A stretch of 43,606 nucleotides of DNA from Phycisphaerae bacterium (GTDB lineage: Bacteria > Planctomycetota > Phycisphaerae > Phycisphaerales > SM1A02), in contig JABIWU010000057.1 of assembly GCA_018701395.1 (NCBI GenBank), positions 1 to 43,606 of the forward strand, written 5' to 3'. The notes below the pieces were generated by a model. It was not told the DNA's origin, did no database searches, and saw nothing but the letters and a program-made list of their open reading frames with translations. Position 1 is the first letter of the stretch. Each line of letters starts with the position of its first letter. Position numbers and translations under genes: made by a program. Positions 6,006 to 32,562 of this stretch are shown piece by piece.

Positions 6006-7049
6006 TTATTGAAGAGGACGAATGAAAACGTTAGTGAAACTAGCGTCATCACCACCTATGCCGATGGTTTTATCTTCGCCTTGGATTGTAAAACGAGACC
6101 ATTTACCCACTTCACCTTCCGGTAATGTTGTTTTAATGCCATCGATTTCTACAAAAGCAGAACTCATTTCAGTGTTGCATTTAAAGTCAAACATGAGTTC
6201 GTATGCCTTGAGTGAGGTTGAAGTTGTAAGCATGCCGCTACCTTTGCTGCAATGCAGAATATTTCCTCCAGCGTTCCAATTTGTTTCATCACTCGTTACC
6301 CAACCTTGTAGGTTGATTCCGTTGAAAAGTGTGACGAAGCCAATAGATTCGTTTGCGATTTCGCTCTCTGGTATTTCAGGCGTTGAATTTGGCAACACTT
6401 TGATTATTATATTTTTGAATTGGGCTGGCGTTCCTTCTGCTTCAAAGCAGATGTATCCTTTGCGAGGTGTAATATCAAAGCCACCAGAAACCACTTTACC
6501 GTTCACGCTGAGTTTTATAGTTCCATCAATACAAGTAACAATGTAATGATTCCATTCGGGTGCAGGGTTGGACCGACGTTCGCTCGGTAGACATCGTTGC
6601 ACATGTGCGCCAAGTGGATGAGGCCTGTCAGGAGTCATTTGTGCTCCCCAGATTGAAAAAATATCACCATGTGTTGTATACCAGTCAAGTTCTTTACCGT
6701 CCATTATTTGAACTTCTATACTTCTTGTGAACGGGACTCCAATTGCCGGAATTGGGTCTGACCAAACAAAGAGTCCAGCGTTGCCATTGGTAACCATGTG
6801 TCGCCAGTCGAGTTCAAGGATAAAATTTTCGTACATTTCATTTGTACGCATAATGCCTGTAGGATTTCCCGTAGTGACAATCATGTTGCTTTTCGCTACC
6901 CATGTTGTTTTGTCTCCGTTGACAATAGTCCAGCCTTCTAAACTCTCGCCATTAAAGAGAGGAGCAAATTGAGCACTCATGGAACTAGAACATCCAGTAA
7001 TCAATGTAATGATTCCTAAAGTAGCGATAGTAGTTATTGATTTATTCAT
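6006..7049 (-). CDS. Lipoprotein with two DUF1080-type (3-keto-disaccharide hydrolase-like) domains
   Basis: A 347-residue predicted lipoprotein with lipobox LITGC (Cys20). Residues about 28-215 form a DUF1080 jelly roll (start FAPLFNGESLEGW; core FILELDWRH, NAGLFVWSD). A second, shorter copy begins at FVTLFNGINLQGW near residue 238. DUF1080 folds are concanavalin-like lectin/glucanase relatives; characterised members include 3-keto-glycoside hydrolases, and they are greatly expanded in Planctomycetota and Verrucomicrobiota. The gene is the last of a five-gene operon, overlaps its upstream neighbour by 8 bases and ends at a hairpin. A role in processing oxidised sugars together with the adjacent dehydrogenase-like protein is inference. 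Confidence 0.82.
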   Translation of the reverse strand: MNKSITTIATLGIITLITGCSSSMSAQFAPLFNGESLEGWTIVNGDKTTWVAKSNMIVTTGNPTGIMRTNEMYENFILELDWRHMVTNGNAGLFVWSDPIPAIGVPFTRSIEVQIMDGKELDWYTTHGDIFSIWGAQMTPDRPHPLGAHVQRCLPSERRSNPAPEWNHYIVTCIDGTIKLSVNGKVVSGGFDITPRKGYICFEAEGTPAQFKNIIIKVLPNSTPEIPESEIANESIGFVTLFNGINLQGWVTSDETNWNAGGNILHCSKGSGMLTTSTSLKAYELMFDFKCNTEMSSAFVEIDGIKTTLPEGEVGKWSRFTIQGEDKTIGIGGDDASFTNVFIRPLQ

Positions 7050-9453
7050 TTGATGAATCCTTTAAATTTGCTACAAAGAATCGACGAATCAAAAGTTCAA
7101 TATCTTGTACGTCTATGTGAATCGAGTCGCCTTGAATAGTTGGCGCTTCCCCATCTATGATTTTAATTCCATTGAGTAAAACAACGGTTGAGCCTGATTG
7201 CTGAATCTCAATTGTGCACCATTCATTTTGATCAACAAGATTTGTGGTGATTGGGTAGCCAGTAATCCCGCCAGTTTTTCTGTTGCCCGCTGTTGCCAAA
7301 TCAATAGCAAGTTCTCCAATAGTAATGGTCGCAGTTCCGAGTCCATTAACTTTTGCATCAAACTTGATGTTGTTATTTGTCATTACATTTGAAAGAGTCG
7401 CTTTGCCATTCCCGCTAACGACAAGGTCGCCCGCGCCTGATTCACGCCAACTCGCATCCCCTTGTGCCTCAATAGCATTTTTATTGAAAGAAACTGCATT
7501 CCAGTCCGAAGGAATATGTGTTTCGTTTTCAGCGCGGAACCTGACATCACCAAAAGCGAAGTGACCTTTTGTGCATGTAATCTTGATTGGTGCGGGTCGA
7601 AGCATGCCAGTATTTTGTTTGGTATTGACAGCAGTTTCAACGCTGTTGATTCCTACATATGAAACCATCGTAGGATCATCTTCGAATTTAATGACCAAGT
7701 CGTGCCAAATGCCGGCGCCTAGGTACCCGCCTTCTTGCTCATTAGAAAGCGTGATGGCTGCACCAATTGGCAACCGAATTTCTGCTTCGCTATTTTCAGC
7801 AAGCATATACCCCATCTTAATTTCGCCGGATGTCATTGTTGCCTTTGTGCTCATTGACTCGCCAGTTGTTGCAACAAGCGCAGACATTCCCTCGGAAGTT
7901 ATAAAAGTGCTTGGGTTTTTGACATCAAGTTCTGCATTGCATAATTCAACACCATCGTTGTTCCACATGGCAAAAGCATCAGCCCATGTTAGGTAGAGCC
8001 AGCCATCTACTTCTTCGCCACGTTCAATAGGCGGTGTAGCGACTTTTGCAACGTATGCAATTGTTTCACCAACCATTTTATTGATGGTGTACGAAACTTC
8101 ATTGTGAAGCAGTTCTGAACCGTCGAGGCTTTTTGCATCTTGCAGTTTTAGCATGACACATTTTCCAGATTCAAGGTTGTCAATAGTGACTTTTGCGGAT
8201 AATCCATCTTCTGAAAGTTCAACGTTTGAAATCAGTAAATCTTCATTGTTTTGTTGTGGAGACCCATACTCCCACCAATAATTATAATCATATTTATTTC
8301 CAGTAATACTCGGAGTGTTTACTAGCGGTTTTGTAAACTCAAGTTCAAAACCATCTTCTACAAGATGTGCAGATTTGATTTCTAAAGGAAAATCTCCATT
8401 GAATTTTATTCGCGCAATACCACTGCCTGGCGCTAAACCGCCCCAACCTCGATTCGTCATCCCGGCGTAAAGCGTGTTGTCGGGACCATATTCGATGTGG
8501 TAAGCAGAGCCGACCCTTTTGTGTGCGATCCAACACGCGCCTTGCATAACTCCGTCAATTTCTTCAAACTGCGCGCGGAGAATTTGCCCATTTGTTAATT
8601 CTGCAATCAACAGCTGCCCATCAAATGGTCCGCCCGTATTATCTTGAATGACATTTCCAGTTGATCGGGACCATTGGTACGGCAACCAAAGAACTGGATG
8701 TTCTCGTTTAATTTCAGGATGTGGTTGCGTGTCACTTGGTTCGTCGTCGGGTTGATCTTCATACCAGCGGAGTGAAGCAGGGTGGCCATAAAAACCATTT
8801 TCTTTAACTGCATACACTGGACAAACTGGCATCCAGTCACCTTGGTTATCAGTTACGAGTAACGTACCATCATCTAATAAGCCCAACCCCGCAGGCGAAC
8901 GAAACCCTCCTGCTATTGGCGTTACGTTTCCTTCTGGTGAAACTTTTAATACCCAGCCACGGTACGGGGCGCGTGATTTTCCGTGCCACCAATGTGGGTC
9001 CCAAAAACCAACATTCAAAGAAAAATATAAATTGCCTACACTGTCGGCTGGAAGCCCAAACCCAAACTCATGGTAGTTGCCACTCAATCCCCAATCTTGT
9101 GTAACAGTTTGAATTTCGTCAATAATAGTGTCATCATCAAGGTCAACGAGTTTGGAAATTTCACCGCGTTGCATGACAAAAATTTCATCGTCCACAACTG
9201 CAAGGCCGAGCCCTTCATGAAGACCTTCGCAAATTAAAGTAAATGTTGCGTCTGCAGGATTGGAAGCACTTGGATTGTCAACTCGCCACACTTGTCCACG
9301 GCGAGTGCTTGCAATTAGATCTCCATCTGACATAAAGCCAATCCCTCCAACTTCCAGGACAGCGCCTTCGGGTGGAGTCAAGTAATCTACGGTCCAATAT
9401 TCTGGTGTAACTTGCGAGAGGGAAAACGAAAGAATGAAAAGCGAAAATATCAT
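7042..9453 (-). CDS. Secreted dehydrogenase-like beta-propeller protein with C-terminal carbohydrate-binding-like domains
   Basis: An 803-residue exported protein with a short hydrophobic signal peptide (IFSLFILSFSLSQ). Residues about 25-370 form a beta-propeller similar to PQQ-type sugar dehydrogenases and to the planctomycete membrane-bound dehydrogenase family (VGGIGFMSDGDLIASTRRG, FRSPAGLGLLDDG, EYGPDNTLYAGM). Residues about 375-470 look like an Ig-like module. Residues from about 490 are two DUF1080/LamG-like jelly rolls (WNNDGVELCN, VSFNKNAIEAQGD, LNGIKIIDGE). There is no heme motif; the preceding gene encodes a cytochrome c that could accept electrons. The start overlaps that gene by 4 bases (ATGA), and the end overlaps the DUF1080 gene by 8. 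Substrate and cofactor cannot be stated from sequence alone. Confidence 0.75.
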   Translation of the reverse strand: MIFSLFILSFSLSQVTPEYWTVDYLTPPEGAVLEVGGIGFMSDGDLIASTRRGQVWRVDNPSASNPADATFTLICEGLHEGLGLAVVDDEIFVMQRGEISKLVDLDDDTIIDEIQTVTQDWGLSGNYHEFGFGLPADSVGNLYFSLNVGFWDPHWWHGKSRAPYRGWVLKVSPEGNVTPIAGGFRSPAGLGLLDDGTLLVTDNQGDWMPVCPVYAVKENGFYGHPASLRWYEDQPDDEPSDTQPHPEIKREHPVLWLPYQWSRSTGNVIQDNTGGPFDGQLLIAELTNGQILRAQFEEIDGVMQGACWIAHKRVGSAYHIEYGPDNTLYAGMTNRGWGGLAPGSGIARIKFNGDFPLEIKSAHLVEDGFELEFTKPLVNTPSITGNKYDYNYWWEYGSPQQNNEDLLISNVELSEDGLSAKVTIDNLESGKCVMLKLQDAKSLDGSELLHNEVSYTINKMVGETIAYVAKVATPPIERGEEVDGWLYLTWADAFAMWNNDGVELCNAELDVKNPSTFITSEGMSALVATTGESMSTKATMTSGEIKMGYMLAENSEAEIRLPIGAAITLSNEQEGGYLGAGIWHDLVIKFEDDPTMVSYVGINSVETAVNTKQNTGMLRPAPIKITCTKGHFAFGDVRFRAENETHIPSDWNAVSFNKNAIEAQGDASWRESGAGDLVVSGNGKATLSNVMTNNNIKFDAKVNGLGTATITIGELAIDLATAGNRKTGGITGYPITTNLVDQNEWCTIEIQQSGSTVVLLNGIKIIDGEAPTIQGDSIHIDVQDIELLIRRFFVANLKDSSNE

Positions 9454-10406: not shown

Positions 10407-11303
10407 TTAGGGTACAGGACGAGCTAGGTCAATTGCAGTGAGGAAGACAAGTTGCGTAGTTTTTGTGGCGAGTTCAGGCAGTATTTTGTCTGCATGATCG
10501 GAAACTCTATGATAATCCTCATGATCTTCAACGCTGAAGAAAACAGCAGGCACGTTTTTTTCTATAAACGGTGCTTGGTCACTCCTGTAAAGCCAATCTG
10601 GGTGTGCGTTTCGAATGATATGTAAATCTATTTGAGCATTTGCACGAACGATCGCCATATTTATCCGAGGAGCATCTGGGGCCCCTTCAAGAAAAATAGT
10701 ATTTGGTTCTCCTCGACTAATCATGTCAAGGTTCAACAAACCACGAATTTTGTTCAGTGCTATTGGTGCATTATTCGCGAAGTGTTGAGAACCAACAAAA
10801 CCAGCCTCTTCACCAGTGAATGCAATGAGAACGATGGAAGATTCTATTTTTGATGTTACTTTTGAAAGGGCGTTCCCGATGGAAATGAGAGCGGCAACTC
10901 CTGAAGCGTTGTCGTCTGCGCCATTGTAAATGCGATCGTCGCCATTTCGTTTTGGTTTTAAGTGGTCGTAATGTGCAGTAATGCATACGAACGTATCGCC
11001 GGTTCCTTTATAGATTGCTGCAACGTTTGGTGAATCGCGAAGATCATCTGTTGGTAAATACATAGAATTTTGAGATGGAAGTGGTGTAAGGCCCGCTTCC
11101 TTCCATGCAGTTGCTATATAGTTTGCGGCTTTTCTTGCTTCAATGGAACGGTAGTGCCTTCCTTGCAATGCATCTGAGGCAAGCCAAGTAACATCACGAA
11201 TAATGTTTTGCTCGGTAATAGAATCAACTGGTGATGGTATTTTTGAACTGCAAGCAGTGCAACAAATGAGAAAGGAAATGACTGTGTATTTAAGCAAATT
11301 CAA
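10407..11303 (-). CDS. M28-family zinc aminopeptidase, lipoprotein
   Basis: A 298-residue predicted lipoprotein (Cys18 in CCTAC). The M28 fold is clear and its di-zinc ligands can be placed: His in TAHYDH (111/114), Asp131 in GADDNASG, Glu165/Glu166 in FTGEEAG, Asp193 in LNLDMISRG and His265 in DYHRVSD. Family members are extracytoplasmic aminopeptidases or, more rarely, glutaminyl cyclases. The start overlaps the end of the DtxR-family gene by 14 bases, so translation is probably coupled. Its product would supply amino acids from peptides outside the cytoplasm. Why it is co-transcribed with a metal regulator is unclear, although the enzyme itself is metal dependent. Confidence 0.87.
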   Translation of the reverse strand: MNLLKYTVISFLICCTACSSKIPSPVDSITEQNIIRDVTWLASDALQGRHYRSIEARKAANYIATAWKEAGLTPLPSQNSMYLPTDDLRDSPNVAAIYKGTGDTFVCITAHYDHLKPKRNGDDRIYNGADDNASGVAALISIGNALSKVTSKIESSIVLIAFTGEEAGFVGSQHFANNAPIALNKIRGLLNLDMISRGEPNTIFLEGAPDAPRINMAIVRANAQIDLHIIRNAHPDWLYRSDQAPFIEKNVPAVFFSVEDHEDYHRVSDHADKILPELATKTTQLVFLTAIDLARPVP

Positions 11304-11946
11304 CTTCTATTCTCCCTGCTGCTGCAAGACCTAATACGACTTCTTCACCTTTTGAAATAATGGTGATGGAATCAGCAACCTCATTTTTGTTCGCGACTTT
11401 GATGGTTGCTCCTAAGAGAAGACCGTTGTCTTCGGCGAATTTTAAAAAGTTTGTGTTTTGATTGCCAATTCTTGCAATAGAAACAGTGTCGCCTAGTTTG
11501 CAAAATGAAAGTGGCTGAAGTGAACGCACAGGCAGTGTCCCTTCTGGAGTAGGAATTGGGTCACCATGCGGATCATGGGTTGGATGCCCAAGCAAGTCGT
11601 CCATTTTGGAAATTACTTGGTCAGAGACAACGTGTTCAAGTTGTTCTGCTTCGTCATGTACTTCGCTCCAATCCATTCCAAGAATGTTGACTAGAAATAA
11701 TTCGACAATTCGATGTCTACGTACGACGTGGACTGCGAGAGTTCGACCTTCATTCGTCAGTTTTACCCCGTAGTGCGGCCTGTGTTCGACGAGCCCAGCC
11801 TGAGCAAGCGTTTTAATCATCGAAGTAGCAGAGCCGGGAGTCACAGAAAGGGCTTTTGCCAATTCGCCTGTTGCGATTTGGGTTTCACCGTCTGGATTGA
11901 GCAAAAAGAGCTCTTTTAAATAATTTTCTACAGTACTTGATATCAT
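11290..11946 (-). CDS. DtxR/MntR-family metal-dependent transcriptional regulator
   Basis: A 218-residue three-domain regulator: winged helix (1-75), metal-binding/dimerisation domain (76-140) and a FeoA/SH3-like domain (about 145-218). Metal-site residues are His78, Glu82, His97, Glu101, Glu104 and His105. Glu at the position of DtxR Cys102 is the MntR-like state and favours manganese. The first-helix ligand (Met10 of DtxR, Asp8 of MntR) aligns with an Asn. I chose the ATG at 11946 rather than the TTG at 11991 because the latter lies inside the operator palindrome and a TATAAG box sits 7 nt before 11946. It is divergent from the metal ABC operon and heads a five-gene operon. It probably represses both directions when metal is replete. 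Confidence 0.88.
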   Translation of the reverse strand: MISSTVENYLKELFLLNPDGETQIATGELAKALSVTPGSATSMIKTLAQAGLVEHRPHYGVKLTNEGRTLAVHVVRRHRIVELFLVNILGMDWSEVHDEAEQLEHVVSDQVISKMDDLLGHPTHDPHGDPIPTPEGTLPVRSLQPLSFCKLGDTVSIARIGNQNTNFLKFAEDNGLLLGATIKVANKNEVADSITIISKGEEVVLGLAAAGRIEVEFA

Positions 11947-11949
11947 TGC

Positions 11950-11978
11950 TTGACTTATAGCATACCATAGATTAAACT
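11950..11978 (+). promoter_or_regulatory. Sigma70-type promoter of the metal ABC operon
   Basis: TTGACT (11950-11955), a 17-bp spacer and TAAACT (11973-11978). Transcription would start near 11985, inside the palindrome, giving a short leader that retains the ribosome binding site before 12004. This is the most canonical promoter in the window. Confidence 0.6.
11954..11959 (-). promoter_or_regulatory. -10-like box of the DtxR-family operon
   Basis: TATAAG on the minus strand, 7 nt before the ATG at 11946. It overlaps the -35 element of the divergent promoter. The 18-bp operator palindrome covers roughly its -35 zone, which would make the gene autoregulated. Confidence 0.45.
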
Positions 11979-11994
11979 TTTGATTAATCAAAAG
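11977..11994. promoter_or_regulatory. 18-bp palindromic operator, probable DtxR/MntR-type site
   Basis: CTTTTGATTAATCAAAAG is a perfect inverted repeat between the divergent regulator and transporter genes. It overlaps the expected transcription start of the transporter promoter and lies in the -35 zone of the regulator promoter. Position, symmetry and AT-rich arms fit DtxR-family operators. The binding protein is inferred. Confidence 0.65.
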
Positions 11995-12003
11995 GATTGT
12001 TTT

Positions 12004-12960
12004 ATGCTATTAAAAATACTACTTTTAACGCAAATGCTCTTATTTTCTGCCAGCGATGCTGATGCTGCATTAGAGATAGTCGCAACAACCGGAATGGTCG
12101 CAGACATCACTCGGCATGTTGTAGGCGAATTTGGAACGGTGGATGCATTAATGGGAGAGGGTATTGACCCGCACCTGTACAAACCCACGGCATCCGATGC
12201 TCGCAAAATCATGCGTGCGGACATGATTTTTTACAGCGGGCTTTTACTAGAGGGCCGAATGACGGACACGTTTATCAAAGCAGCACGGATGGGAAAAGTT
12301 GTCTTTCCAGTTACTGAACTCATCGAAGAAACATATTTGCTTGAACCCCCAGAATTCAAAGGGCACTGGGACCCACATGTCTGGATGGATGTTTCTGCAT
12401 GGGCGCATGCTGTAGATGCAATCGCGAAAGCACTTTGCGAACAAGACCCAGCACATTGTGAAGTCTATACATCAAACGCCAAAGAATACAACGAGAAATT
12501 AACTCGGCTTCATCAGTACGCTTTAGATTCCATTGCAACAATTCCAATGGAGCAACGAATTTTAATAACCGCGCACGATGCGTTTAATTATTTTGGTCGA
12601 GCGTATGGAATCAAAGTGGTTGGTATCCAAGGATTATCTACAGAGTCTGAAGCAGGAATTGAAGATGTAAATCGATTGGTGCATTTACTAGTAGACAAGG
12701 GAATTACTGCTGTATTTGTCGAGTCAAGTGTTTCAGACAGAAATGTAAATGCATTAATTGAGGGCGCTGCTTCAAAAGGGCATACAGTCGTAATTGGTGG
12801 TCGTTTATTTTCAGATGCAATGGGGAAGGGTGGAACGTACAAAGGCACATATATCGGAATGCTCGATCACAACATCACAACGATTACGAATGGCCTCGGT
12901 GGCTCAGCACCTGAATTAGGATTTGTTTCAATAAACCAAAAAGAAGAAGTGGTTGAATAA
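12004..12960 (+). CDS. Metal ABC transporter substrate-binding protein (TroA/ZnuA/YtgA family)
   Basis: A 318-residue cluster A-I binding protein with an N-terminal signal peptide ([20 protein letters not shown]). Metal ligands align as His57 (IDPHLYKPT), His125 (WDPHVWMD), His191 ([10 protein letters not shown]) and Asp271 (LFSDAMG), the His3-Asp set of TroA. The His-rich loop of zinc-specific ZnuA is absent. Together with the MntR-like regulator next door this favours manganese or iron, but zinc is not excluded. I chose the ATG at 12004, preceded by an AAAGGA ribosome binding site 7 nt upstream, over the TTG at 11980, which lies in the operator. It is first in a four-gene operon; the stop overlaps the ATPase start (TAATG). 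Confidence 0.9.
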
Positions 12961-13736
12961 TGAAAGTAGAAGCTGGACACTCAACAACCTCGCCGGTTTC
13001 AATACATGACCTTACAGTTGCTTACCAGCGAAAACCAGTTCTTTGGGATGTTGACCTGGACATTCCCGAAGGAAAACTGATTGCAATCGTAGGCCCAAAC
13101 GGCGCAGGAAAAAGTACTCTCATTAAAGCAGTTTTAGATTTAGTTCCAAAAGCATCTGGGAAAGTGATGATATATGGAAGACCATTTGCAAAACAAAGAA
13201 AGTTAGTTGCGTATGTTCCTCAACGAGAATCGGTAGACTGGGATTTTCCTATTGATGCATTAGGTGTTGTCTTGATGGGGCGCTACAACAAGATTGGTTG
13301 GTGTAAGCCAGTTCGCAAACAAGATAGTAAAGCTGCCATGGAATCGCTTGAAAGAGTTGGTATGGCAGATTTTGCTCGTCGACAAATAAGTCAACTCTCG
13401 GGCGGACAACAACAACGTGTATTTCTAGCTCGAGCACTAACACAAGATGCAACTATTTATTTAATGGATGAACCGTTTGCGAGTGTTGACGCTACTACAG
13501 AGAGAGCAATCGTAAAAGTATTGGGCGATTTACGTTCGTTGGGAAAAACAGTGGTCGTGGTTCATCATGATTTGCAAACTGTAAGAGAGTATTTTGATCA
13601 TGTCATTTTATTGAATATGCGTGTTGTTGCACATGGACCTGTTGATGAAGTATTTACAGATGAAAACTTAAAGAAAACATATGGCGGTAGACTGACATTG
13701 CTTTCAGAAGCCGCAGACCGCTTGGCAAGACATTGA
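12960..13736 (+). CDS. Metal ABC transporter ATP-binding protein (TroB/ZnuC/YtgB family)
   Basis: A 258-residue ATPase with Walker [10 protein letters not shown] (45-53), Q-loop in [13 protein letters not shown], signature LSGGQQQR (146-153), Walker B IYLMDEP with Asp170 and catalytic Glu171, and switch His in VVHHDL. The [10 protein letters not shown] segment is typical of manganese/zinc/iron chelate importers. It energises the two permeases encoded next. Its start overlaps the binding-protein stop by one base, and its stop overlaps the next start by 4 bases if that begins at the TTG at 13733. Confidence 0.92.
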
Positions 13737-15085
13737 TTGCTTCGCATTCCATTTCAGATGTCCGCATCTCGATGCCATCGCTCGAACAAATTGTGCGAGT
13801 GCTTAGTCTTGAAGACTACAACACACGCGTTGTGGTCCTTGGCGTGATGGCTCTTGGGGCAGCGTCAGGTTTGGTAGGAACTTTTTTGTTGTTGCGAAAA
13901 AGAGCGCTAACTGCTGATGCTTTAAGCCATGCGACTCTTCCCGGCATAGCAGTTGCATTCATGATCATGGTGGCTTTTGGATATGATGGTAAATCACTTT
14001 TTGGATTACTTACTGGCGCTTTTGTGTTTGGTTGTATTGGCGTTCTTGCCATATTGGGGATACGACATACAACTCGGTTAAAAGATGATGCAGCAATTGG
14101 AATCGTATTAAGTGTTTTGTTTGGGCTAGGGCTTTGTCTTTTACGAATTGCTACCGAACTTCCTAGCGGAAGTGCAGCGGGCCTGAGTGGGTTTATTTTT
14201 GGCAAAGCATCCTCGATGGTTGCAAGCGATGCAACAACGATGGGAGTGGTCGCTGTTTCAATTGCACTTGTCACAATGGTCCTTCACAAAGAGTGGACGC
14301 TTCTTTGTTTTGACGAAAAGTTTGGCTCTTCTCAAGGGTGGCCGGTGATTTGGTTGGACATACTATTGATGGTAATGGTGGCGATTGTTACAGTGCTTGC
14401 CTTGCAATCTGTCGGATTGGTTCTTGCGGTTGCAATGTTAATTATCCCTGCCGCATCAGCGAGGTATTGGACATCTAAAATCACACCCATGTTACTTGCT
14501 GCCGCATCGATTGGATGCCTAAGTGGTTGGCTTGGTGCGGTCGTGAGCGCACTTGTACCCCGTATGCCAACAGGTCCAATTATTGTTTTGATTTGCGGTT
14601 TGTGGTTTATCATAAGTTTCATTGCGGGTCCGAAAGATGGCTTAATAATTAGGCAATTGACACGTTTGTATTTGAATAGACGAATTGCAAAACAACATAT
14701 CTTGCGCGCGATGTGGGAAGTTTGTGAAAGTAATGCAGTGCCCGAATTTACAGTGGATTCGATTGTTTACGTTCGGTCGTGGAATAATCGAACAGTTATT
14801 CGATTGCTAAAAAAAGTTTCAAAATTAAATTATGTCACGCAGCTTCCTTCGGGCAAGTGGTTATTAACAGAATTTGGCTTTGCAGAAGCGGCACGAGTAG
14901 TACGCAACCATCGCTTGTGGGAAATGTATTTAATTACGTATGCTGATATTGCGCCTACCCATGTTGACAGAGATGCAGACATGATTGAACATGTTCTTGG
15001 CCGTGATCTTGTTGCAAAACTTGAGTTGCTTCTTGACGCAACAAAAATACCTCAGAGCCCGCACGCAATTGGGGTGACGCAGTGA
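13733..15085 (+). CDS. Metal ABC permease fused to a DtxR-like domain (YtgCR-like)
   Basis: 450 residues. Residues 1-305 form an ABC-3 permease with many membrane spans ([40 protein letters not shown]). Residues about 315-450 form a cytoplasmic DtxR-like module: winged helix ([17 protein letters not shown], wing [11 protein letters not shown]), then the metal/dimerisation domain with His393 and Glu397 ([10 protein letters not shown]) and Asp416, Glu419 and His420 (ADMIEH). One ligand differs from the stand-alone regulator (Asp for Glu at 416). The same fusion is known from chlamydial YtgCR, whose repressor half is released by proteolysis. The start is either the TTG at 13733, overlapping the ATPase stop, or the ATG at 13772; neither has a good ribosome binding site. 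Confidence 0.88.
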
Positions 15086-16368
15086 CGTGGTCAATAATTG
15101 ATACTTGGATTGTAATTATTGGTGGACTCTGCGCTGCAGGGTGTGCAATTCCCGGAGCAATTCTTGTTTTAAGAAAAATGAGTTTAATGGGAGACGCAAT
15201 TAGCCATACGGTCTTGCCAGGAATCGCAATTGCATTCTTGATTACAGGCAGCCGCGACCCCATGGCGATGCTGATTGGTTCGGTAGTAGTTGGTTTAGTA
15301 ACAGCATTTTTAGTGCAAGCAATTCAAACATTTGGAAAGGTGGAAGCCGGCGCTTCCATGGGCATTGTGTTCACTGTGTTGTTTGCATTTGGGCTAGTTC
15401 TTATGAGGCAGGCTGTAGATCATGTTGACATTGACCCCGACTGTGTTCTTTATGGTTCAATCGAACTTGCATGGTTTGATCAGGATCCAGAGGGGTTAGG
15501 AATACCTCGTGGAGCAATCGTCAACGGCGTGATGCTTTTGGCAAATTTATTGTTGTTGCTACTTTTTTACAAAGAATTCAAAATAACTTCGTTTGATCCT
15601 GCTCTGGCAAAAGCACAAGGGTTTCAACCCTCTTTTATGCATTACATGTTGATGACGATGACTGCGGCAACCGCAGTGGCAGCATTTGAGACTGTCGGTT
15701 CGATTCTCGTTGTTGCAATGTTTATCGTTCCGCCCGCAACAGCGTACTTGTTGACAAATAGATTTAGCATGATGTTTATTCTTGCAATCTTTCTCTCGGT
15801 GTTAGCAGCCATCATTGGGCATATTTCAGCAATTACGATTCCAACGTGGTTTGGTTTTTCTGGAACGAGCACCGCTGGTGCCATGGCAGTTGCAACGGGG
15901 GCACTATTCCTAGTTGCATGGGTTGTTTCTCCACTGGATGGAATGCTCGTACGTATGTGGCACTTATTTTCAACGCGATTGCATGTTGTTCGAGAAGATA
16001 TTCTTGGCGTACTCTGGCGACTAGAAGAAAGAGGACAAAAAGAGCTACTACTAGTTCAGTTGTCAGAAGCGATTGGAACGACCCCATTCTTAGTTAAGAT
16101 TAGTTTGCAACTATTGCAAAAGAGAAATGTAGTATCGAAAACGAAGTTGTTTTGGTCGTTAACTGATTGCGGAAGAAAACAAGCAGCTGCTATTGTTCGT
16201 TCTCACCGTTTATGGGAGGTGTATCTTGATAAACATTTTCCTCAGGACGTGCACCAATTGCATCAATCTGCAGAGAGGTTAGAGCATATTACAACCCCAG
16301 AAATGCAAGTAAAACTTGGTAATGCAAAAGAAGACCCACATGGAAGTCAAGTGCCGGCTGACGAGTAA
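15082..16368 (+). CDS. Second metal ABC permease, also fused to a DtxR-like domain
   Basis: 428 residues starting at a GTG that overlaps the previous stop (GTGA). Residues 1-290 are an ABC-3 permease (LRKMSLMGDAISHTVLPGIA, VGSILVVAMFIVPPATAYLL). Residues about 295-428 are a DtxR-like module with a winged helix (TTPFLVKISLQLLQKRNVV) and a complete set of metal-site residues: His375, Glu379, His394, Glu398, Glu401 and His402, followed by the family's DPHGSQVP turn. The site is thus more MntR-like than that of the first permease. The homologous chlamydial permease YtgD has no such domain, so a doubled fusion is unusual. Last gene of the operon. Confidence 0.88.
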   Translation: MTWSIIDTWIVIIGGLCAAGCAIPGAILVLRKMSLMGDAISHTVLPGIAIAFLITGSRDPMAMLIGSVVVGLVTAFLVQAIQTFGKVEAGASMGIVFTVLFAFGLVLMRQAVDHVDIDPDCVLYGSIELAWFDQDPEGLGIPRGAIVNGVMLLANLLLLLLFYKEFKITSFDPALAKAQGFQPSFMHYMLMTMTAATAVAAFETVGSILVVAMFIVPPATAYLLTNRFSMMFILAIFLSVLAAIIGHISAITIPTWFGFSGTSTAGAMAVATGALFLVAWVVSPLDGMLVRMWHLFSTRLHVVREDILGVLWRLEERGQKELLLVQLSEAIGTTPFLVKISLQLLQKRNVVSKTKLFWSLTDCGRKQAAAIVRSHRLWEVYLDKHFPQDVHQLHQSAERLEHITTPEMQVKLGNAKEDPHGSQVPADE

Positions 16369-16392: not shown

Positions 16393-16791
16393 ATGAAACT
16401 ATTATTTTCAATTCTGTGTTTATTTGTTTTAACTTCTTGTTCGACTTTTTCTAAAGATGGGACAGAAGTCATCACTCGTCCATTTTCCGATGTTGATAGC
16501 GAACGGAAAATTGTCCTGTCAGTAGGGCGAACTTTTGAAATTGTTCTTCCTAGTAATCCAACAACTGGATATAGTTGGACGCTACTTATTGAGAACCCTA
16601 AAATTATTTCAAATGAATCGCACGCATATACTCCTGACGCGGGCGGCAGGGTAGGCGTTGGCGGAAATACAATTTGGAATCTCAAAGCAAGAAAAGAAGG
16701 AGAAACTTCATTGACTTTTTCTTATCAACGTCCGTGGGAAGAAAACACACAACCAACAAAAGTTGTTTCGTTCACTGTTAGTGTTAATTAA
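16393..16791 (+). CDS. Chagasin-like (inhibitor I42) lipoprotein
   Basis: A 132-residue lipoprotein with lipobox LTSC (Cys16). The three inhibitory loops of the I42/chagasin family are all visible: NPTTGYSW (55-62), VGVGG (87-91) and RPWE (113-116). Chagasins block papain-type cysteine proteases by inserting these loops into the active-site cleft. Its own promoter gives it independent expression. The 3' end overlaps the convergent glycosyltransferase gene by 8 bases. No papain-like protease is encoded nearby, although a transglutaminase-like protein with a Cys-His pair lies at 17955-18812. Whether the target is endogenous or foreign is unknown. Confidence 0.85.
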   Translation: MKLLFSILCLFVLTSCSTFSKDGTEVITRPFSDVDSERKIVLSVGRTFEIVLPSNPTTGYSWTLLIENPKIISNESHAYTPDAGGRVGVGGNTIWNLKARKEGETSLTFSYQRPWEENTQPTKVVSFTVSVN

Positions 16792-23666: not shown

Positions 23667-23807
23667 CCAGATATGGCGCTGTATTCACTCATCATTGGCG
23701 CCGACATTGGTCGATGAAGTCCGATACCATCCCGCATATTGATAGTGCGGGGGCTATTCTTTGGAGCATTGAGCGGTAAAGGCAAATTTTTGATTAACTG
23801 GAATATA

Positions 23808-25469
23808 ATGAGTTTAAAATCCTACGCAACAATCTTTCAAACAAGTAGCGTCGCAGTTGTTGCTGGCTTTTTCTTACTTGGTTGCAATTCAAATGCTTGG
23901 ATGGGTGATCCGAGTGCTCAGGGCTATTACAAGCCTACGCCAACGACGATCCCAATTCTTGACAGGATTGACATAATTGAAGAACCTGACGTTTGGCCTC
24001 AACTGTCAAAAGTTACACCGATGGACTTGATGCCATCTGATTTGACCTATCGAATACACCCAGCAGATGTTTTAGATTTGAAAATTTTTGGTTTGTACCA
24101 AACAAATCAACATTATCCTGTCACCAGAAGAGTGGATGTTGGCGGTCACTTTCGAGTTCCAGAACTCGGCGATGTTTTAGTTGCCGGTTTGACTGTGCAA
24201 GCCGCACAGGATTTAATTACAAGTGAACTTGGCAAAAAAGTACTAACACATCCAAGTGCACAACTTGAAGTAATTGATCAAACAGCATTGACGTATACCG
24301 TATACGGCGGATTGTCAAGATGGGGTTTGTTTACATTGCACAATCCAGATTTGCGACTTGTCGATGTACTCGCTCTTGCGGGAGGTGTCCCCCAATCTAC
24401 GCAAGAAATTTATGTTATTCGCCAACTTGAAGTTAGCGATACTGTGCTTCCATCTTGGGACCATAGCAATGCTGCAAAGAACCACGAAACTCCTCTGAAT
24501 AGTAAAACGCCAACAACTACACCAGTTTCAAAACCACACCAACCAAGTGTGGACATTGAAGATTTAATAAAACAATTAGATTTGGGCGAAGGCGCTCCGT
24601 CAGATACACAAGTTCCAGCGCCGACCCTAGATGAAACACAAACTGAGAATGACGCAGATATAACTTCGTTAATTAACCAACTTGACATTGGTGATACAAC
24701 CGAGCAACCATCCCATTCAGTTTCGCCAGGAATTATCCAAACAGGGAATCATGAGTTAATTGACATCGACGATTTAGTCCCTGATCGAAACTCCGCTTCC
24801 AACTTTACTGCACAGCAACTTCCTGTTGACATCGATGACCTCATTACACCAAGTGCTAAGCCGACGACTGATTCCGCTTTTATTTATGTTCCTGAGAGTG
24901 ACACTTGGATTCCAGTAAGTACTGGCCCAAAAAAAGCAACTCGATTAGACAACACTACTAGCAAAGACCAAAATGCTCAGGCATCGGTTGTCCTCGAACG
25001 AATTATTGAAATCCCATGGGGTTTGCTTAAACAGGGCGATAGCAGATACAACATCGTAATTCGACCTAAAGACCGCGTGTATGTAAAAGGTGTGCCACTG
25101 GGCAACTTGTACATTCGCGGCGAAATCAGTCGGCCAGGAGTTTACGATTATCCAAGAAGCGGAAAGAAGATTACTCTTTCAGAGTTCATAACTTCTGCGG
25201 GTGATTTGGGCCCAATCGCAGTCCCTGAAAAAGTAAGTCTTACGCGTCGATTTGGTGATGTTCAAGCAACAGTCACACTTAACTATGCAGCGATTCTTCA
25301 GCGAACAGAACCAGATATTTTCTTGAAACCAAACGACCACATCAGTATTGGCACTTCATGGGGTGCAACTCCAATGGCGATTATTCGAAATGGTTTCAGG
25401 GCAACGTACGGCTTTGGTTTTCTTCTTGATCGGAACTTCGGAAACGACGTCTTCGGAAGGCCTCCGTAA
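23808..25469 (+). CDS. Outer-membrane polysaccharide export lipoprotein (Wza-like, SLBB)
   Basis: 553 residues from the ATG at 23808, with lipobox FLLGC at about residue 26. Residues about 80-190 form the polysaccharide-export domain (HPADVLDLKIFGL, VDVGGHFRVPELGDV, LTVQAAQDLI) followed by an SLBB strand set. Residues about 240-390 are an acidic, low-complexity insert holding four related motifs: DIEDLI (249), DITSLI (284), DIDDLV (319) and DIDDLI (341). A second SLBB domain (NLYIRGEISRPGVYDYP) and a short C-terminus follow. Upstream in-frame starts exist at 23739 and 23769, the latter 8 nt after TATTCT. The family forms the outer-membrane exit channel for capsule or EPS. It opens the exosortase/EPS locus; the 135 bases after it hold nothing recognisable. 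Confidence 0.86.
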   Translation: MSLKSYATIFQTSSVAVVAGFFLLGCNSNAWMGDPSAQGYYKPTPTTIPILDRIDIIEEPDVWPQLSKVTPMDLMPSDLTYRIHPADVLDLKIFGLYQTNQHYPVTRRVDVGGHFRVPELGDVLVAGLTVQAAQDLITSELGKKVLTHPSAQLEVIDQTALTYTVYGGLSRWGLFTLHNPDLRLVDVLALAGGVPQSTQEIYVIRQLEVSDTVLPSWDHSNAAKNHETPLNSKTPTTTPVSKPHQPSVDIEDLIKQLDLGEGAPSDTQVPAPTLDETQTENDADITSLINQLDIGDTTEQPSHSVSPGIIQTGNHELIDIDDLVPDRNSASNFTAQQLPVDIDDLITPSAKPTTDSAFIYVPESDTWIPVSTGPKKATRLDNTTSKDQNAQASVVLERIIEIPWGLLKQGDSRYNIVIRPKDRVYVKGVPLGNLYIRGEISRPGVYDYPRSGKKITLSEFITSAGDLGPIAVPEKVSLTRRFGDVQATVTLNYAAILQRTEPDIFLKPNDHISIGTSWGATPMAIIRNGFRATYGFGFLLDRNFGNDVFGRPP

Positions 25470-25604
25470 ACAAAATATATCGGTAACTCTTTTTGCTGAA
25501 CACGGTACTACTGTAGGCGTACTGTTGTTGCGCAAGGAGGGTATTGAAGAATGCTTTAAGCTATATGTATAGAGAGAGTCATTCTGAACCGATTATAGAA
25601 AACC

Positions 25605-27386
25605 ATGTTTAAAGCATTAGAAATGCAATCTACGGAAGAAGTTTCCCCAAAAAGACTATTACTTTGGTCAATAGTTATTTTTGTTGCATTTACATGGATC
25701 TTTTGGGATTTTCTTCAGCGACAATTTTTGTTTGCAATACAACAGCAAGCAGACTGGGGTCACACACTTATTATTCCGTTTATTTCGGGCTATTTTATAT
25801 GGCTTTGCAGGGGGAAAATTCTTAGCGAACCCTTTAAGCGGGCTCGAAGCGGCATTTTGCTCCTTCTGCTCGGTTTGGGTTGGTATACGCTCTGTGCTCT
25901 GGGGCCTACCGCGATGCATCACCACAACCTAATGGGTTTTGGAGTCTGTCTCTCCATTACTGGGCTATGCTTGTATTTGTTTGGGTGGCGTGCGATGCAG
26001 TATCTTTGGTTTCCCCTTTTATATTTGTTTGTGTTTGGGCAATCGATTTCAGATCGCTTTATGGAAATCGTCACGTTTAAATTGCAAGACATCGCATCTA
26101 TTGGCTCTTATTATGGACTTACGATTCTTGGTTTAGATGTGACTCGAGCGGGGAATACGTTGGAAATTTTTTACAACGATGTTGCATATCCTCTAAATAT
26201 TGCAGAAGCATGTTCCGGCATGCGAATGCTGATGGCTTTTTTAGCGCTTGGCGTTGCAATGGCATACACTGGGTTGCCGTATCTCTGGCAACGAATAACA
26301 CTTGTAGTATTAGCATTGCCAACAGCGGTTTTTGTCAACATACTTCGGGTAATGTCTTTAGGGCTGCTGAGTATTGCAGACAGTGGATTAGCCGCAGGCG
26401 ATTTTCATACATTTATTGGGACGCTTTGGTTAATACCTGCTTTTTTAATTTACCTTGGAATCGTATGGATTCTTAAAAATTTAATCATTGAAGAAGATGA
26501 AATAGAAGAACCCGAAGAAGAAATTAGCCCACTGCGATTTCGAGGTACCGCAACTACTGGGTTTGTTACTGCGGTCGTCATTTTGTCGGTTTCAGCAGTT
26601 GCTTTGCAAATTGGAGTGAGCGCACTGAATGTGTATTTGAAAAAGGAAGCAGTTTTTCCTAGAAAAGTTTTTTCCGTGTTGCCCTCGACCATTGATGGGT
26701 GGAAACGAATCGGAGAGGATGCTAGGTTTGACTCTGCGGGCGTTGAAGCACTCGGTACAGAGTTGTACTTAACAAGAGCATATGCAAGCTCAGATAAAAC
26801 ATTGCCTGTTATTCAACTACACATTGCGTATTACACAGGTCAAATTGATGCAGTGCCACATGTGCCAGACAGATGCATGGTTGCTGGAGGGTATGTCCCT
26901 CTTACAGCGGAACCAATTACCGTAGCCATGCACATTGATAATTCTGATTGGGTAATAGACCAAGCAATTGGTCAAAATGGCACCCAATATCCAATGATTG
27001 AGCAGTGGGACCCAATTCAAGAAACTAATGAAATAATTCATTTTCCACTGGGCGACTTCGAATTGCGTTGCACTGAATTCATACATCCAAAACTAGGCGA
27101 TAACCATGTTTTCGCTGGCTATTTGTTTATTGCCAATGGAAAAACCACAGCGTATCCAGAAAGAATTAGAATGCTCGCATTCGACAGATCGTCAAAATAT
27201 GCTTACTACTGCAAGATACAATTTACAACACGTGGCGGTCCTCAATTCACTATGGACGAATTTAATGCGCTCGCTTCAGGATTTTTATCGAGCGCACTTC
27301 CAGAAATTATGCGTTGCCTCCCAGACTGGGCTGAGGTAACAGATCAAACTCAAACAACCCTTCTTCAAGATAATCAGGAGCCGTGA
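25605..27386 (+). CDS. Exosortase fused to EpsI domain
   Basis: A 593-residue membrane protein. Residues about 15-290 are the exosortase core with roughly eight membrane spans. The catalytic triad of the exosortase/archaeosortase family is visible: Cys203 in AEACSGMR, Arg248 in VNILRV and His268 in DFHTFIGTLWL. An acidic linker (about 294-308) joins one further membrane span to a periplasmic EpsI domain (about 350-580) with the usual HVPDRCMVAGGY segment. Exosortases cleave and re-anchor PEP-CTERM-type proteins at the envelope, normally in EPS-producing bacteria. No PEP-CTERM-like tail was found on any protein in this window, so substrates lie elsewhere. A TATAGA sequence 5 nt before the ATG may be its promoter. 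Confidence 0.92.
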   Translation: MFKALEMQSTEEVSPKRLLLWSIVIFVAFTWIFWDFLQRQFLFAIQQQADWGHTLIIPFISGYFIWLCRGKILSEPFKRARSGILLLLLGLGWYTLCALGPTAMHHHNLMGFGVCLSITGLCLYLFGWRAMQYLWFPLLYLFVFGQSISDRFMEIVTFKLQDIASIGSYYGLTILGLDVTRAGNTLEIFYNDVAYPLNIAEACSGMRMLMAFLALGVAMAYTGLPYLWQRITLVVLALPTAVFVNILRVMSLGLLSIADSGLAAGDFHTFIGTLWLIPAFLIYLGIVWILKNLIIEEDEIEEPEEEISPLRFRGTATTGFVTAVVILSVSAVALQIGVSALNVYLKKEAVFPRKVFSVLPSTIDGWKRIGEDARFDSAGVEALGTELYLTRAYASSDKTLPVIQLHIAYYTGQIDAVPHVPDRCMVAGGYVPLTAEPITVAMHIDNSDWVIDQAIGQNGTQYPMIEQWDPIQETNEIIHFPLGDFELRCTEFIHPKLGDNHVFAGYLFIANGKTTAYPERIRMLAFDRSSKYAYYCKIQFTTRGGPQFTMDEFNALASGFLSSALPEIMRCLPDWAEVTDQTQTTLLQDNQEP

Positions 27387-27391
27387 ATTAG

Positions 27392-30300
27392 ATGGCAAAA
27401 AAGAAATATAAGTCTGTACATAATAAGAAACGCAAAAATAATTCTGTTCACGGAAGTAAAACGAACAAGAAGTTGATAAAGATCTTGGTTGTTGCAACGT
27501 TACTCGTCGGCAGTGTGCTAGTTGGCTTGATTTATATGAACATGAAAAGCGCGGTTTCAAATGTTGCAAATGCAGACGAAAGTATGGAATTGGGTGACTT
27601 TCGAAAAGCATATAAGTTATACGGCAAAGCGGTCAGCAAAGAGTTAAACAACCTCGATTACATTTCGAAGTTGCAAAACGCACTTATCCAGATTACACCT
27701 AAGACGCAGGAAGAAGCAGTAGATTTCTACAACAGATATATTGAAACGTTAGTTCACGCTGCTAGATACAACCCCTCAGACATAGACGCTCAACTTGCAG
27801 TGGCAAATGAAATGCACAGAGCCGCACGAGTTACAGGAGGTTTGAATTATTGGAAGCGACTACAATTAGCTGCAAAGGCTGGGCTTGAGCATATTGCACT
27901 TGATAACCCTCGTCGTCACGAGTTGACACTGTTCGTTGGCCTTTCTTCGTTGCGCATCGAAGATGCGACCATGACTGAAACATATGATGCAATAGGTCAC
28001 GTACGATTCCCGGGCGAAAATGAAATTGAACTTGCAATTGAAGCAGACCCAGGGAATGCTATTGCATGGGCTGCACTTGCTCACGGAAGGATGGCACTAT
28101 ATTATCGTTTAACTGCGCAGGGCAAAACTAAACAAGCGAGCCTCAATTTCCAATTAGCAAATGAAACTATGCAACAAGCAATTGAAGTTGCAGGAGAAAG
28201 TTTTGATGTTTTGACTACGTACTTCAGGGATGTTTTGCTACAGAGGGGCACTCTAAATCAACTTCACTTGATGGACCCAAGAAAAGTTACGCAAGAAGAG
28301 TTAGAAATTGCCGAGTTGAAAGTCACTGATGCACAAGATGCACTCATTGAACATTTTGACCCAGAAATACACGGTTCGCGCACACCAGAGGTTGTAAGTT
28401 TATTGCTCAAAGCATCCAAAGAAGGGCCTGATGTTGCGATTCAAATTTTACAAAAACATATAGACCGATACCCTAAAGATTATGCAAGAAGGTATTTGTT
28501 TTCGACTGTGTTGAGGCAAAAGGATAGGCTTGACGAAGCAGAGGAAGTTGTACAAGTAATAATTGATGCGCCACAACAGACGGTGTCACTCGAAGCGATT
28601 GAACAATTTTCCTTACATGCACCTTCAGCCCATTTATTGGTTGAGCTGGCAATACATAAAGCGATTCGCGAGGAAGACGAAACTGTTAGGCAGCAATTGA
28701 TTAAAGAAGCAAAAAATAGTAGAGAACTTTTGTTAGGATTTGTTTCAAATAATAAAAAGAATAATTTGCTTTTGTATGCCGATGGATTGATTGCGCTTGC
28801 GGAGAAAAACTACGATGTTGCAACAGCCAAGATTGAGTTAGTAATTTCTCGAGTACCAATTCCGACTCCCCAACAACTTCGACATGCTGCAATCGCTCTC
28901 GCAGAAACTGGCTCAAAAGGTTTGGCGACAGTACGATTAGCATCTGCTATTGAGCAAGAGCCAGAAAATTTAGCGAACTACCTGTTAAAGGCGAGACTGG
29001 AATTGCAAATGTCAGATTTTGTTGCAGCCAAGCGGACGCTTAATAGACTTCCTGATTCTGCTAAAGAAGTAGAGCAAGTTGCAGAGTTGCTCGACATCAT
29101 CGCAATGAAAAATTCTGATTCAAATGAAACAGTGTTTACAGACGAAATTCTTTTCGTAATTGCAAGCGCTGAAAGAATGTATTCTCTGGGGCAAGTCCAA
29201 GAAGCAATTACATTGTTGCTTGAGGAAATAGATAGAACTGAGTCAAAGGATTGGCGTTTGCTTGTAGCAGTGTCCAACCTATATATGAACAACGAAGATA
29301 TAGAATCAGCAATTGCTTATCGCAAAGAGGCACTCCAACTGCGTCCTAACTTGAAGTTGCAAAATGACATAATTGCAATGGAGAGCGGGGATCGCGTTGA
29401 AGCAGTAATTGCAATCATCAACTCTCGCGATTTACCAGAAGGCGAAACTGCCCAGCGCATCGCTGTTGAATTGTATTCCCTTGGAATGAAGCAGCGGAAT
29501 TCGCAAATTCGCTGGAGCCGCATGGGAGATAAAACGGCAGCAGATGAAGCGGAGGTAATTTCTACGAAAGCATTTGAACATAGTAAACAATATCAAGAAC
29601 GAGCATTAGAACTTGGAGTAAATGCAGCATCAATCACATTGATGCAATTCAACCAAGCGCTGTTTGACAAGGACTTGGATTTAGCAGATGAACTAATCAA
29701 CGAATATAGTTCAATGTCATCAGATGAAATTGAATTGTCCGGAATGAAAATTAGTTCTCTCTTGTTAAAAGGTGAAATGGCAAAGGCAGATGGCGATTTT
29801 GCATCGGAGCAAATCCACTATAAAGATGCGTTAGAAATTGCACTGGCAAATACTGAAGAAAGGCCATTTTCAGATGTTACTTGGAGTGTTCTAGGTATGG
29901 TGCACTCTGCTATGGGTAATCTGGATAAAGCGCTTTCTGCGAACGAAGAGGCGTATCGAATTGCACCAAAATCTAAAGAGAACGTTCGTAGTTATGTTGG
30001 GTCTTTGTATTCAACAAATGCAGATGCAACTCGCTTGCTTCGAGTCATCAGACTTGCCCGGACGCAACACCCTTCAGATAAGCAAATATTGGAAGTTTGG
30101 TTAGATATGGAATCTCAAAGAGGGAATCTTAGTGATGTTCTTTCATATCGAAATGAACGGTACATGCTTAAACCTAAAGATAGAAACAATACGATTAATC
30201 TTGCTGCGTTCTATATGCAAACTAAACCAACTCACGAATTGTTATTGAATGTGGATGGAAGTAAAAAGTATCCAAACAGAACATGGGAAAAATTACCTTC

Positions 30301-32548: not shown

Positions 32549-32562
32549 TTGGAACAATAGAT

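Follow-up and report, generated by a model that had tools for sequence, protein, structure and literature searches.

The window, a stretch of 43,606 nucleotides from a Phycisphaerae bacterium (assembly GCA_018701395.1, contig JABIWU010000057.1, forward strand), encodes an ATP-binding cassette (ABC) metal importer in which both membrane subunits end in a DtxR-like module: permease A, of YtgC/TroC type (13733..15085, + strand; 450 amino acids; ABC-3 match at 1e-54), and permease B, of YtgD/TroD type (15082..16368, +; 428 amino acids; ABC-3 at 7.7e-47). They follow the genes for a periplasmic metal-binding protein of the ZnuA family (12004..12960, +; Pfam ZnuA, 8.3e-75) and for the importer's 258-residue ABC ATPase (12960..13736, +; Pfam ABC_tran, 1.3e-29). 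These genes, from 11980 to 16368, run in the order binding protein, ATPase, permease A, permease B, and at the last three junctions neighbours adjoin or overlap; an ABC-3 domain, a ZnuA-type protein and an ATPase in a single operon identify a manganese/zinc/iron ABC-3 importer (TroBCD/PsaBC/ZnuBC). The ATPase has a manganese/iron ABC ATPase as its best NCBIfam match, below that model's cut-off, and Pfam finds in it the ABC domain only, with no fused regulatory domain. The gene order resembles that of Chlamydia, as the original prediction had it: ATPase, permease, permease was read in Chlamydiota loci, and the same trio here comes after the binding protein.

Divergent from these genes, as had also been anticipated, lies a separate stand-alone repressor of DtxR/MntR type with a C-terminal FeoA domain (11290..11991, − strand; Pfam PF01325, PF02742 and FeoA; likely true ATG at ~11946). 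Between it and the binding-protein gene is an operator-like perfect palindrome, TTTTGATTAATCAAAA (11978..11993); the binding-protein reading frame as listed begins within the palindrome, at 11980, and an ATG stands at 12004. A search of the surrounding genome (1.94 Mb in 102 contigs, 97.7% complete) at an E value of 0.001 returned no ABC-3 permease beyond A and B, and no DtxR domain beyond the stand-alone protein, A and B, three in total.

Ligands and predicted fold of the modules

That both metal permeases bear DtxR-like C-terminal modules is upheld by Pfam and by the predicted fold, which agree. The metal binding and dimerisation domain Fe_dep_repr_C is matched over its cut-off in A (6.1e-13) and in B (8.7e-14). 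The core of A (14867..15058, +) contains His393, Glu397, Asp412, Asp416, Glu419 and His420; that of B (16162..16356, +) contains His375, Glu379, His394, Glu398, Glu401 and His402. Every ligand named in the original prediction sits at the exact residue given, in A and in B; its list had missed Asp412 of A, which occupies a position where most of the family has His, and the metal-site positions on helix 1 of the winged helix (His322 in A, Asp306 in B).

AlphaFold models, made as single chains (52 alignment rows for A, 50 for B), have whole-model mean predicted local distance difference test scores of 90.9 (A) and 93.6 (B), and in both the module is modelled as a winged helix followed by a dimerisation domain. 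Residues 315-450 of A superpose on DtxR 3-135 with Z 16.9 and 2.0 Å over 131 residues, and the module of B fits the DtxR two-domain unit at 1.8-2.0 Å over ~130 alignment columns; both modules are thus predicted to have the DtxR/MntR fold, complete with its His/Glu ligand set. The membrane domain of A is modelled as the PsaBC type, the manganese importer of PDB 7kyp/7kyo (Z 35.8; 31% identity over 283 residues), from which it differs in that the PsaC chain (<=290 residues) has no C-terminal sensor. The earlier claim of a winged helix in each module therefore stands as far as foldability by structure prediction is concerned; the winged-helix profile PF01325 itself is matched in neither permease.

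Conservation of the ligands was read in an alignment of 21 loci from the window's order, with positions expressed in what we take to be the residue numbers of DtxR and MntR. The equivalents of His77 and Glu83 are present in 20/21 A modules and 21/21 B modules, and those of Glu102 and His103 (which are not the DtxR-102 position) in all 21 of each. The helix-1 metal residue is His in 20/21 A modules and Asp in 20/21 B modules. At the DtxR-98 equivalent A has Asp (20/21) and B has His (21/21); at the DtxR-102 equivalent A has Asp throughout (21/21).

Membrane coupling and the winged helix

Another key feature of both models is the way in which the module leaves the membrane. Residues 304-334 of A (14642..14734, +) are predicted, by DSSP assignment on the model, to form one continuous helix in which the membrane exit passes directly into helix 1 of the winged-helix domain, and residues 288-316 of B (15943..16029, +), Asp306 among them, are modelled as its counterpart; the exit helix is 31 residues long in A and 29 in B. 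Neither model has a linker between membrane domain and module. A reading of the module boundary as a cleavable linker was therefore dropped. As far as the models go, this argues against proteolytic release without excluding it. In A, His322 lies 19 residues past Gly303, and this spacing is general: across 200 rows of fused permeases (194 distinct sequences and 6 duplicates), the Gly of the exit motif is always present, and the distance from it to the helix-1 metal-site position is 19 residues in 200/200, Chlamydiota included. A helix phase held so strictly would suit mechanical coupling better than a tether made for cutting.

The winged helix itself gives a different picture. PF01325 is matched by 30/30 stand-alone proteins (30 chosen out of 70 rows), by 0/21 A modules, by 0/21 B modules and by 0/12 putative chlamydial YtgC proteins; A and B accordingly have no recognisable DNA-binding domain of the DtxR/MntR repressors. 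We dropped this absence as proof that the modules do not bind DNA: because chlamydial YtgC scores zero too, it cannot by itself exclude DNA binding. Sequence constraint was compared from helix 2 to the wing, in pairs whose core identity lies between 0.40 and 0.65. Identity there is 0.38 among the stand-alone proteins, a figure based on 70 rows that include two fused permeases cut at contig ends (L085, L086) and two duplicate pairs (L084/L102, L091/L115), and 0.17-0.24 among fused modules once the putative Chlamydiaceae are set apart (0.24 for A of the order; 0.22 each for B of the order, named single fusions and other Chlamydiota). In the putative Chlamydiaceae (L212-L223) the winged helix is conserved, at 0.50 for a mean core identity of 0.62 (31 pairs, close relatives).

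A control within genomes points the same way. In nine doubled loci that also encode a DtxR-FeoA repressor (L084 and L088 left out), the three proteins share their divergence times, and in the 36 pairs, which are not independent of one another, mean winged-helix identity is 0.55 for the stand-alone repressor, 0.30 for A and 0.26 for B, against core identities of 0.67, 0.65 and 0.52; the ratio of helix-turn-helix to core identity is 0.81, 0.46 and 0.50, respectively. The repressor's winged helix is above that of A in 36/36 pairs and above that of B in 35/36. Furthermore, long gaps fall in the recognition-helix region of three modules (A of L076 and L079, B of L082). The modules thus resemble the DtxR/MntR/IdeR/SloR repressors in their metal ligands and in the predicted two-domain fold as a whole, and differ from them in being fused to a permease, in having no PF01325 match and in their divergent winged helix.

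Repressor, distribution and ancestry

The best solved relatives of the stand-alone repressor by sequence, 5zr4 and 8pvt, are titled manganese-dependent repressors. Its candidate binding site recurs at comparable places elsewhere. The sequence TTTTGANNNNTCAAAA has one exact match in its own 1.94 Mb genome. In 146 related loci it was counted 24 times, at 23 distinct sites, where Markov shuffles give an expectation of 0.5 and never exceeded 1 in any of 20 runs; of these occurrences, 21 lie <=400 bases from where a gene for a DtxR-domain protein or a binding protein starts. Among 12 intergenic regions compared, the palindrome is exact in 8. At one mismatch the genome holds 33 palindrome sites against 10 for the control, too noisy for reading a regulon, and at three mismatches the window holds 2, not above shuffles; the weight of the palindrome rests on its place and recurrence, not on its genome-wide count. 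From this pattern, the palindrome is probably an operator bound by the stand-alone DtxR protein. A nearby stand-alone repressor is common among the window's relatives: a stand-alone DtxR gene lies within the stretch read in 19 of 22 doubled loci of the order, and a third DtxR-domain match is found in 21 of those 22 genomes.

The palindrome also precedes a FeoB-linked DtxR-FeoA gene in two other genomes of the order (L227, L229). Two proteins of this kind (L227:2107-3189 and L230:1392-2390) combine a DtxR core and FeoA with what by eye is an N-terminal hydrophobic stretch, and their genes adjoin one for a FeoB G-domain; FeoB is likewise a neighbour of the DtxR-FeoA gene in L228, L229 and L248, where the same kind of sensor thus stands by a second, unrelated metal transporter.

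To place the doubled fusion, we drew 53 genomes evenly from the window's order (a prior twenty loci of the order had been picked for looking tandem). Fused modules are present on both permeases in 22 of these genomes, on B only in 3 and on A only in 2; four have a single fused permease, with no second permease in the stretch read; 19 are without a fused permease among the matches read, and three were placed in no class (G315 and G317 at contig ends, G318 with overlapping frames). The reverse arrangement, a plain first permease with a fused second, was seen in L235, L237 and L242. More widely, fused permeases occur in at least 12 named phyla, mostly Bacteroidota (45), among the best 80 named loci of at least 508 confirmed candidates, a selection (75 with a named phylum) whose shares are not a census. 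The doubled form accounts for 5 of those 80 (three Planctomycetota, two Myxococcota); in 66 the module is confined to the first permease, and in the other 9 a second permease is not in view. Among all loci read, the doubled form was seen only in Planctomycetota and in the two Myxococcota records. A DtxR match is present in 136 of 151 Chlamydiota genomes (a single one in 123, two in 13), and 45/45 Chlamydiota loci read are fused on the first permease.

PMC5599777 credits Thompson et al. 2012 with orthologous permease-repressor fusions in 11 phyla. The doubled form, for which we found no paper in the open-licence literature, is a variant of this already known fusion. Because fusions occur in at least 12 named phyla, fusion is not a trait of the PVC group, and the suggestion of an ancestral PVC arrangement is not supported as put; the doubled form, too, was seen only in Planctomycetota and the two Myxococcota records.

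In a permease tree made by a quick method, all first permeases stand opposite all second or single ones with a support of 100. A careful tree of the modules unites the A modules from every phylum sampled, Chlamydiota among them, in one clade (97/96), and places 13 of 14 B modules in another (93/90) beside A, and the stand-alone repressors in a third (100/99). The quick module tree (89 rows) differs: B of L082-L084, L104 and L105 falls within A, and the order's B modules near the stand-alone proteins. We restrict our conclusions to what the two agree on, namely that the order's A modules belong with the chlamydial modules and its B modules lie outside that clade. The approximately unbiased (AU) test rejected the idea that, within the order, B recently received a copy of the A module (p 0.024; the group was named after the trees had been seen). 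The test did not reject B with stand-alone DtxR as a clade (p 0.189), all B with single-permease modules (p 0.248), or A with B of L082, L084, L104 and L105 (p 0.102).

The parallel with chlamydial YtgCR, which the original prediction had extended to both permeases, thus holds for the first. Permease A and its module are kin to Chlamydiota YtgC (100; 97/96), and they share with Chlamydia YtgABCD the same core ligands and the 19-residue membrane coupling. On the other hand, the second permease is not a plain one of YtgD type, since B has a module of separate lineage; Chlamydiota mostly have one DtxR domain, whereas here there are three, one of them stand-alone and accompanied by a palindrome; and the window's relatives do not conserve the winged helix. 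Chlamydiaceae and the window's relatives therefore differ in winged-helix constraint, in the presence of an extra repressor and in doubling.

Second permeases in 15 single-fusion loci (L087, L090-L093, L107, L112, L117, L121, L122, L127, L133, L139, L143 and L176; L099, whose 177-residue tail is read in a doubtful frame, is not counted) end in a winged-helix-only tail, 89-113 residues from the exit motif, with no metal domain. Their helix-1 metal position is Leu, Ile or Met in 15/15, so that the metal residue is present or absent along with the metal domain, and 14/15 have an F-x-W motif. To judge by sequence, these tails look like remnants of a lost module. If they are, doubling may date far back, with plain permeases of YtgD type as a derived form, a point that the trees do not settle.

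Elsewhere in the window, a gene for a chagasin-type (I42) protease inhibitor lies directly past permease B (16393-16791), and one for an M28 peptidase (10407-11303), as listed, shares its strand with the repressor gene and overlaps that gene's end. In the region 23739-34746, genes for a polysaccharide export protein, an exosortase (EpsH), a 1718-amino-acid TPR protein and an AAA_31 ATPase follow one another, in what looks like an exopolysaccharide cluster of the exosortase type. An 803-amino-acid protein (7042-9453) has no Pfam match at 1e-6 and is flanked by 3-keto-disaccharide hydrolase and cytochrome c genes.

Possible roles of the two modules

The original prediction offered two functions for these sensors, heterodimeric released repressors or transport gated by cytoplasmic metal, and gating fits our observations better. 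The fixed 19-residue spacing without a linker, the near-invariant metal site, the divergent winged helix and the adjacent stand-alone DtxR gene with its palindrome all favour it over release. We think it probable, by no great measure, that the modules of A and B form a pair below the transporter, which they lock once cytoplasmic metal is plentiful. In sensors of the DtxR type, which work as dimers, metal links helix 1 with the dimerisation core. Each of two different membrane subunits would here carry such a sensor, rigidly continuous with its last membrane helix, and the two, modelled as single chains, would come together as one heterodimeric DtxR-like unit beneath the importer. At high cytoplasmic metal, binding between helix 1, which is the extended exit helix, and the dimerisation core would pin both exit helices and halt the alternating movement of the importer: trans-inhibition. 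Transcription would be handled separately by the stand-alone DtxR protein, at the palindrome before the binding-protein gene. A homodimer of a single fused permease, if the four genomes of the order with no second one in the stretch read form it, would likewise bring two sensors to each importer. We infer the A:B pairing, the identity of the metal, and both the inhibition and its direction.

A metal importer of the ABC family whose membrane subunits bear a sensor is not known to us, although no exhaustive search for one was made. An analogy may be drawn with MetNI and ModABC, in which, according to PMC10710835, binding of the transported substrate to paired, ATPase-borne domains locks the importer. 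The paired cytoplasmic substrate-binding domains proposed here would act similarly, with the difference that the regulatory domain is on the ATPase there, and on the membrane subunits and of DtxR type here.

Several observations weigh against gating. The putative YtgC of Chlamydiaceae shares both the lack of PF01325 (0/12) and the 19-residue spacing, yet YtgR is reported as cleaved and DNA-binding in PMC5599777 and PMC6504234; neither property therefore excludes release. The models still give A and B a well-folded winged helix, and A holds a Trp at the start of the recognition helix in 19/21 loci, so the winged helix presumably has some job. Single-module importers are the majority (66 of the best 80 named loci), and genomes of the order are found with the fusion on B alone (3) or A alone (2); since single-module importers predominate, a pair of sensors is not essential to the fusion. 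At the DtxR-102 equivalent, Glu is found in 11/21 B modules only (Met in 6, Ser in 3, Thr in 1); the window's own B keeps Glu, and it is at this position alone that B is less strictly kept than A. Finally, the palindrome is inexact in L063, of the same genus (one mismatch), and in L072 (two), and has no good match in L069 or L154.

We consider it unlikely that the modules are cut off and act as soluble repressors, as homodimers or as an A:B heterodimer, in the manner of chlamydial YtgR. The kinship of module A with the chlamydial modules, the predicted DtxR two-domain fold, and the exit spacing and PF01325 lack held in common with the chlamydial proteins all speak for it. So does the precedent: YtgR, taken in PMC6504234 as the C-terminal 139 residues, is reported there and in PMC5599777 as cleaved and DNA-binding, and PMC5599777 credits Thompson et al. 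2012 with YtgC bands at ~49 and 28 kDa. However, the models have no linker and the spacing is invariant, the winged helix is divergent and in some members partly deleted, and a separate repressor with a palindrome is at hand; by contrast, Chlamydiota mostly have a single DtxR domain (123/136) and first-permease fusions, with a conserved winged helix in the putative Chlamydiaceae.

It is also improbable that the modules serve assembly, holding A and B together, or hand metal over at the channel exit, with no regulation of transport. The conserved core and the helix coupling would suit such a part, as would the persistence of winged-helix-only tails on some second permeases without a metal domain; plain permeases of the family, e.g. 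PsaBC, nevertheless assemble without such domains, and the conserved DtxR-type ligand set would point to sensing. That the modules remain in the membrane as tethered DNA-binding repressors reporting the state of the transporter is very unlikely: the winged helix is predicted to fold and some FeoB-linked DtxR-FeoA proteins of the order have, by eye, an N-terminal membrane helix, but the DNA-binding sequence features are not kept, and the locus already has a soluble repressor, next to an operator-like palindrome.

A wider proposal, whose chances we put at somewhat short of even, is that DtxR modules fused to permeases generally act on the importer directly, as a brake operated by metal and a form of trans-inhibition seated on the membrane subunits, with an intact sensor dimer when doubled, and that DNA binding by released chlamydial YtgR is a later reuse in a lineage that retains one module and mostly has no stand-alone DtxR protein. 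Under gating, the reported release of YtgR would gain a reason, because the lone sensor of a YtgC-type importer cannot pair within its transporter. If gating by the modules is correct, a transcription-factor sensor has been turned into a transport valve, and the widespread YtgC-type fusion would gain a function outside Chlamydia. The release of YtgR would become a special case: a lone module would leave the membrane for its partner, whereas the doubled form would have its partner built in.

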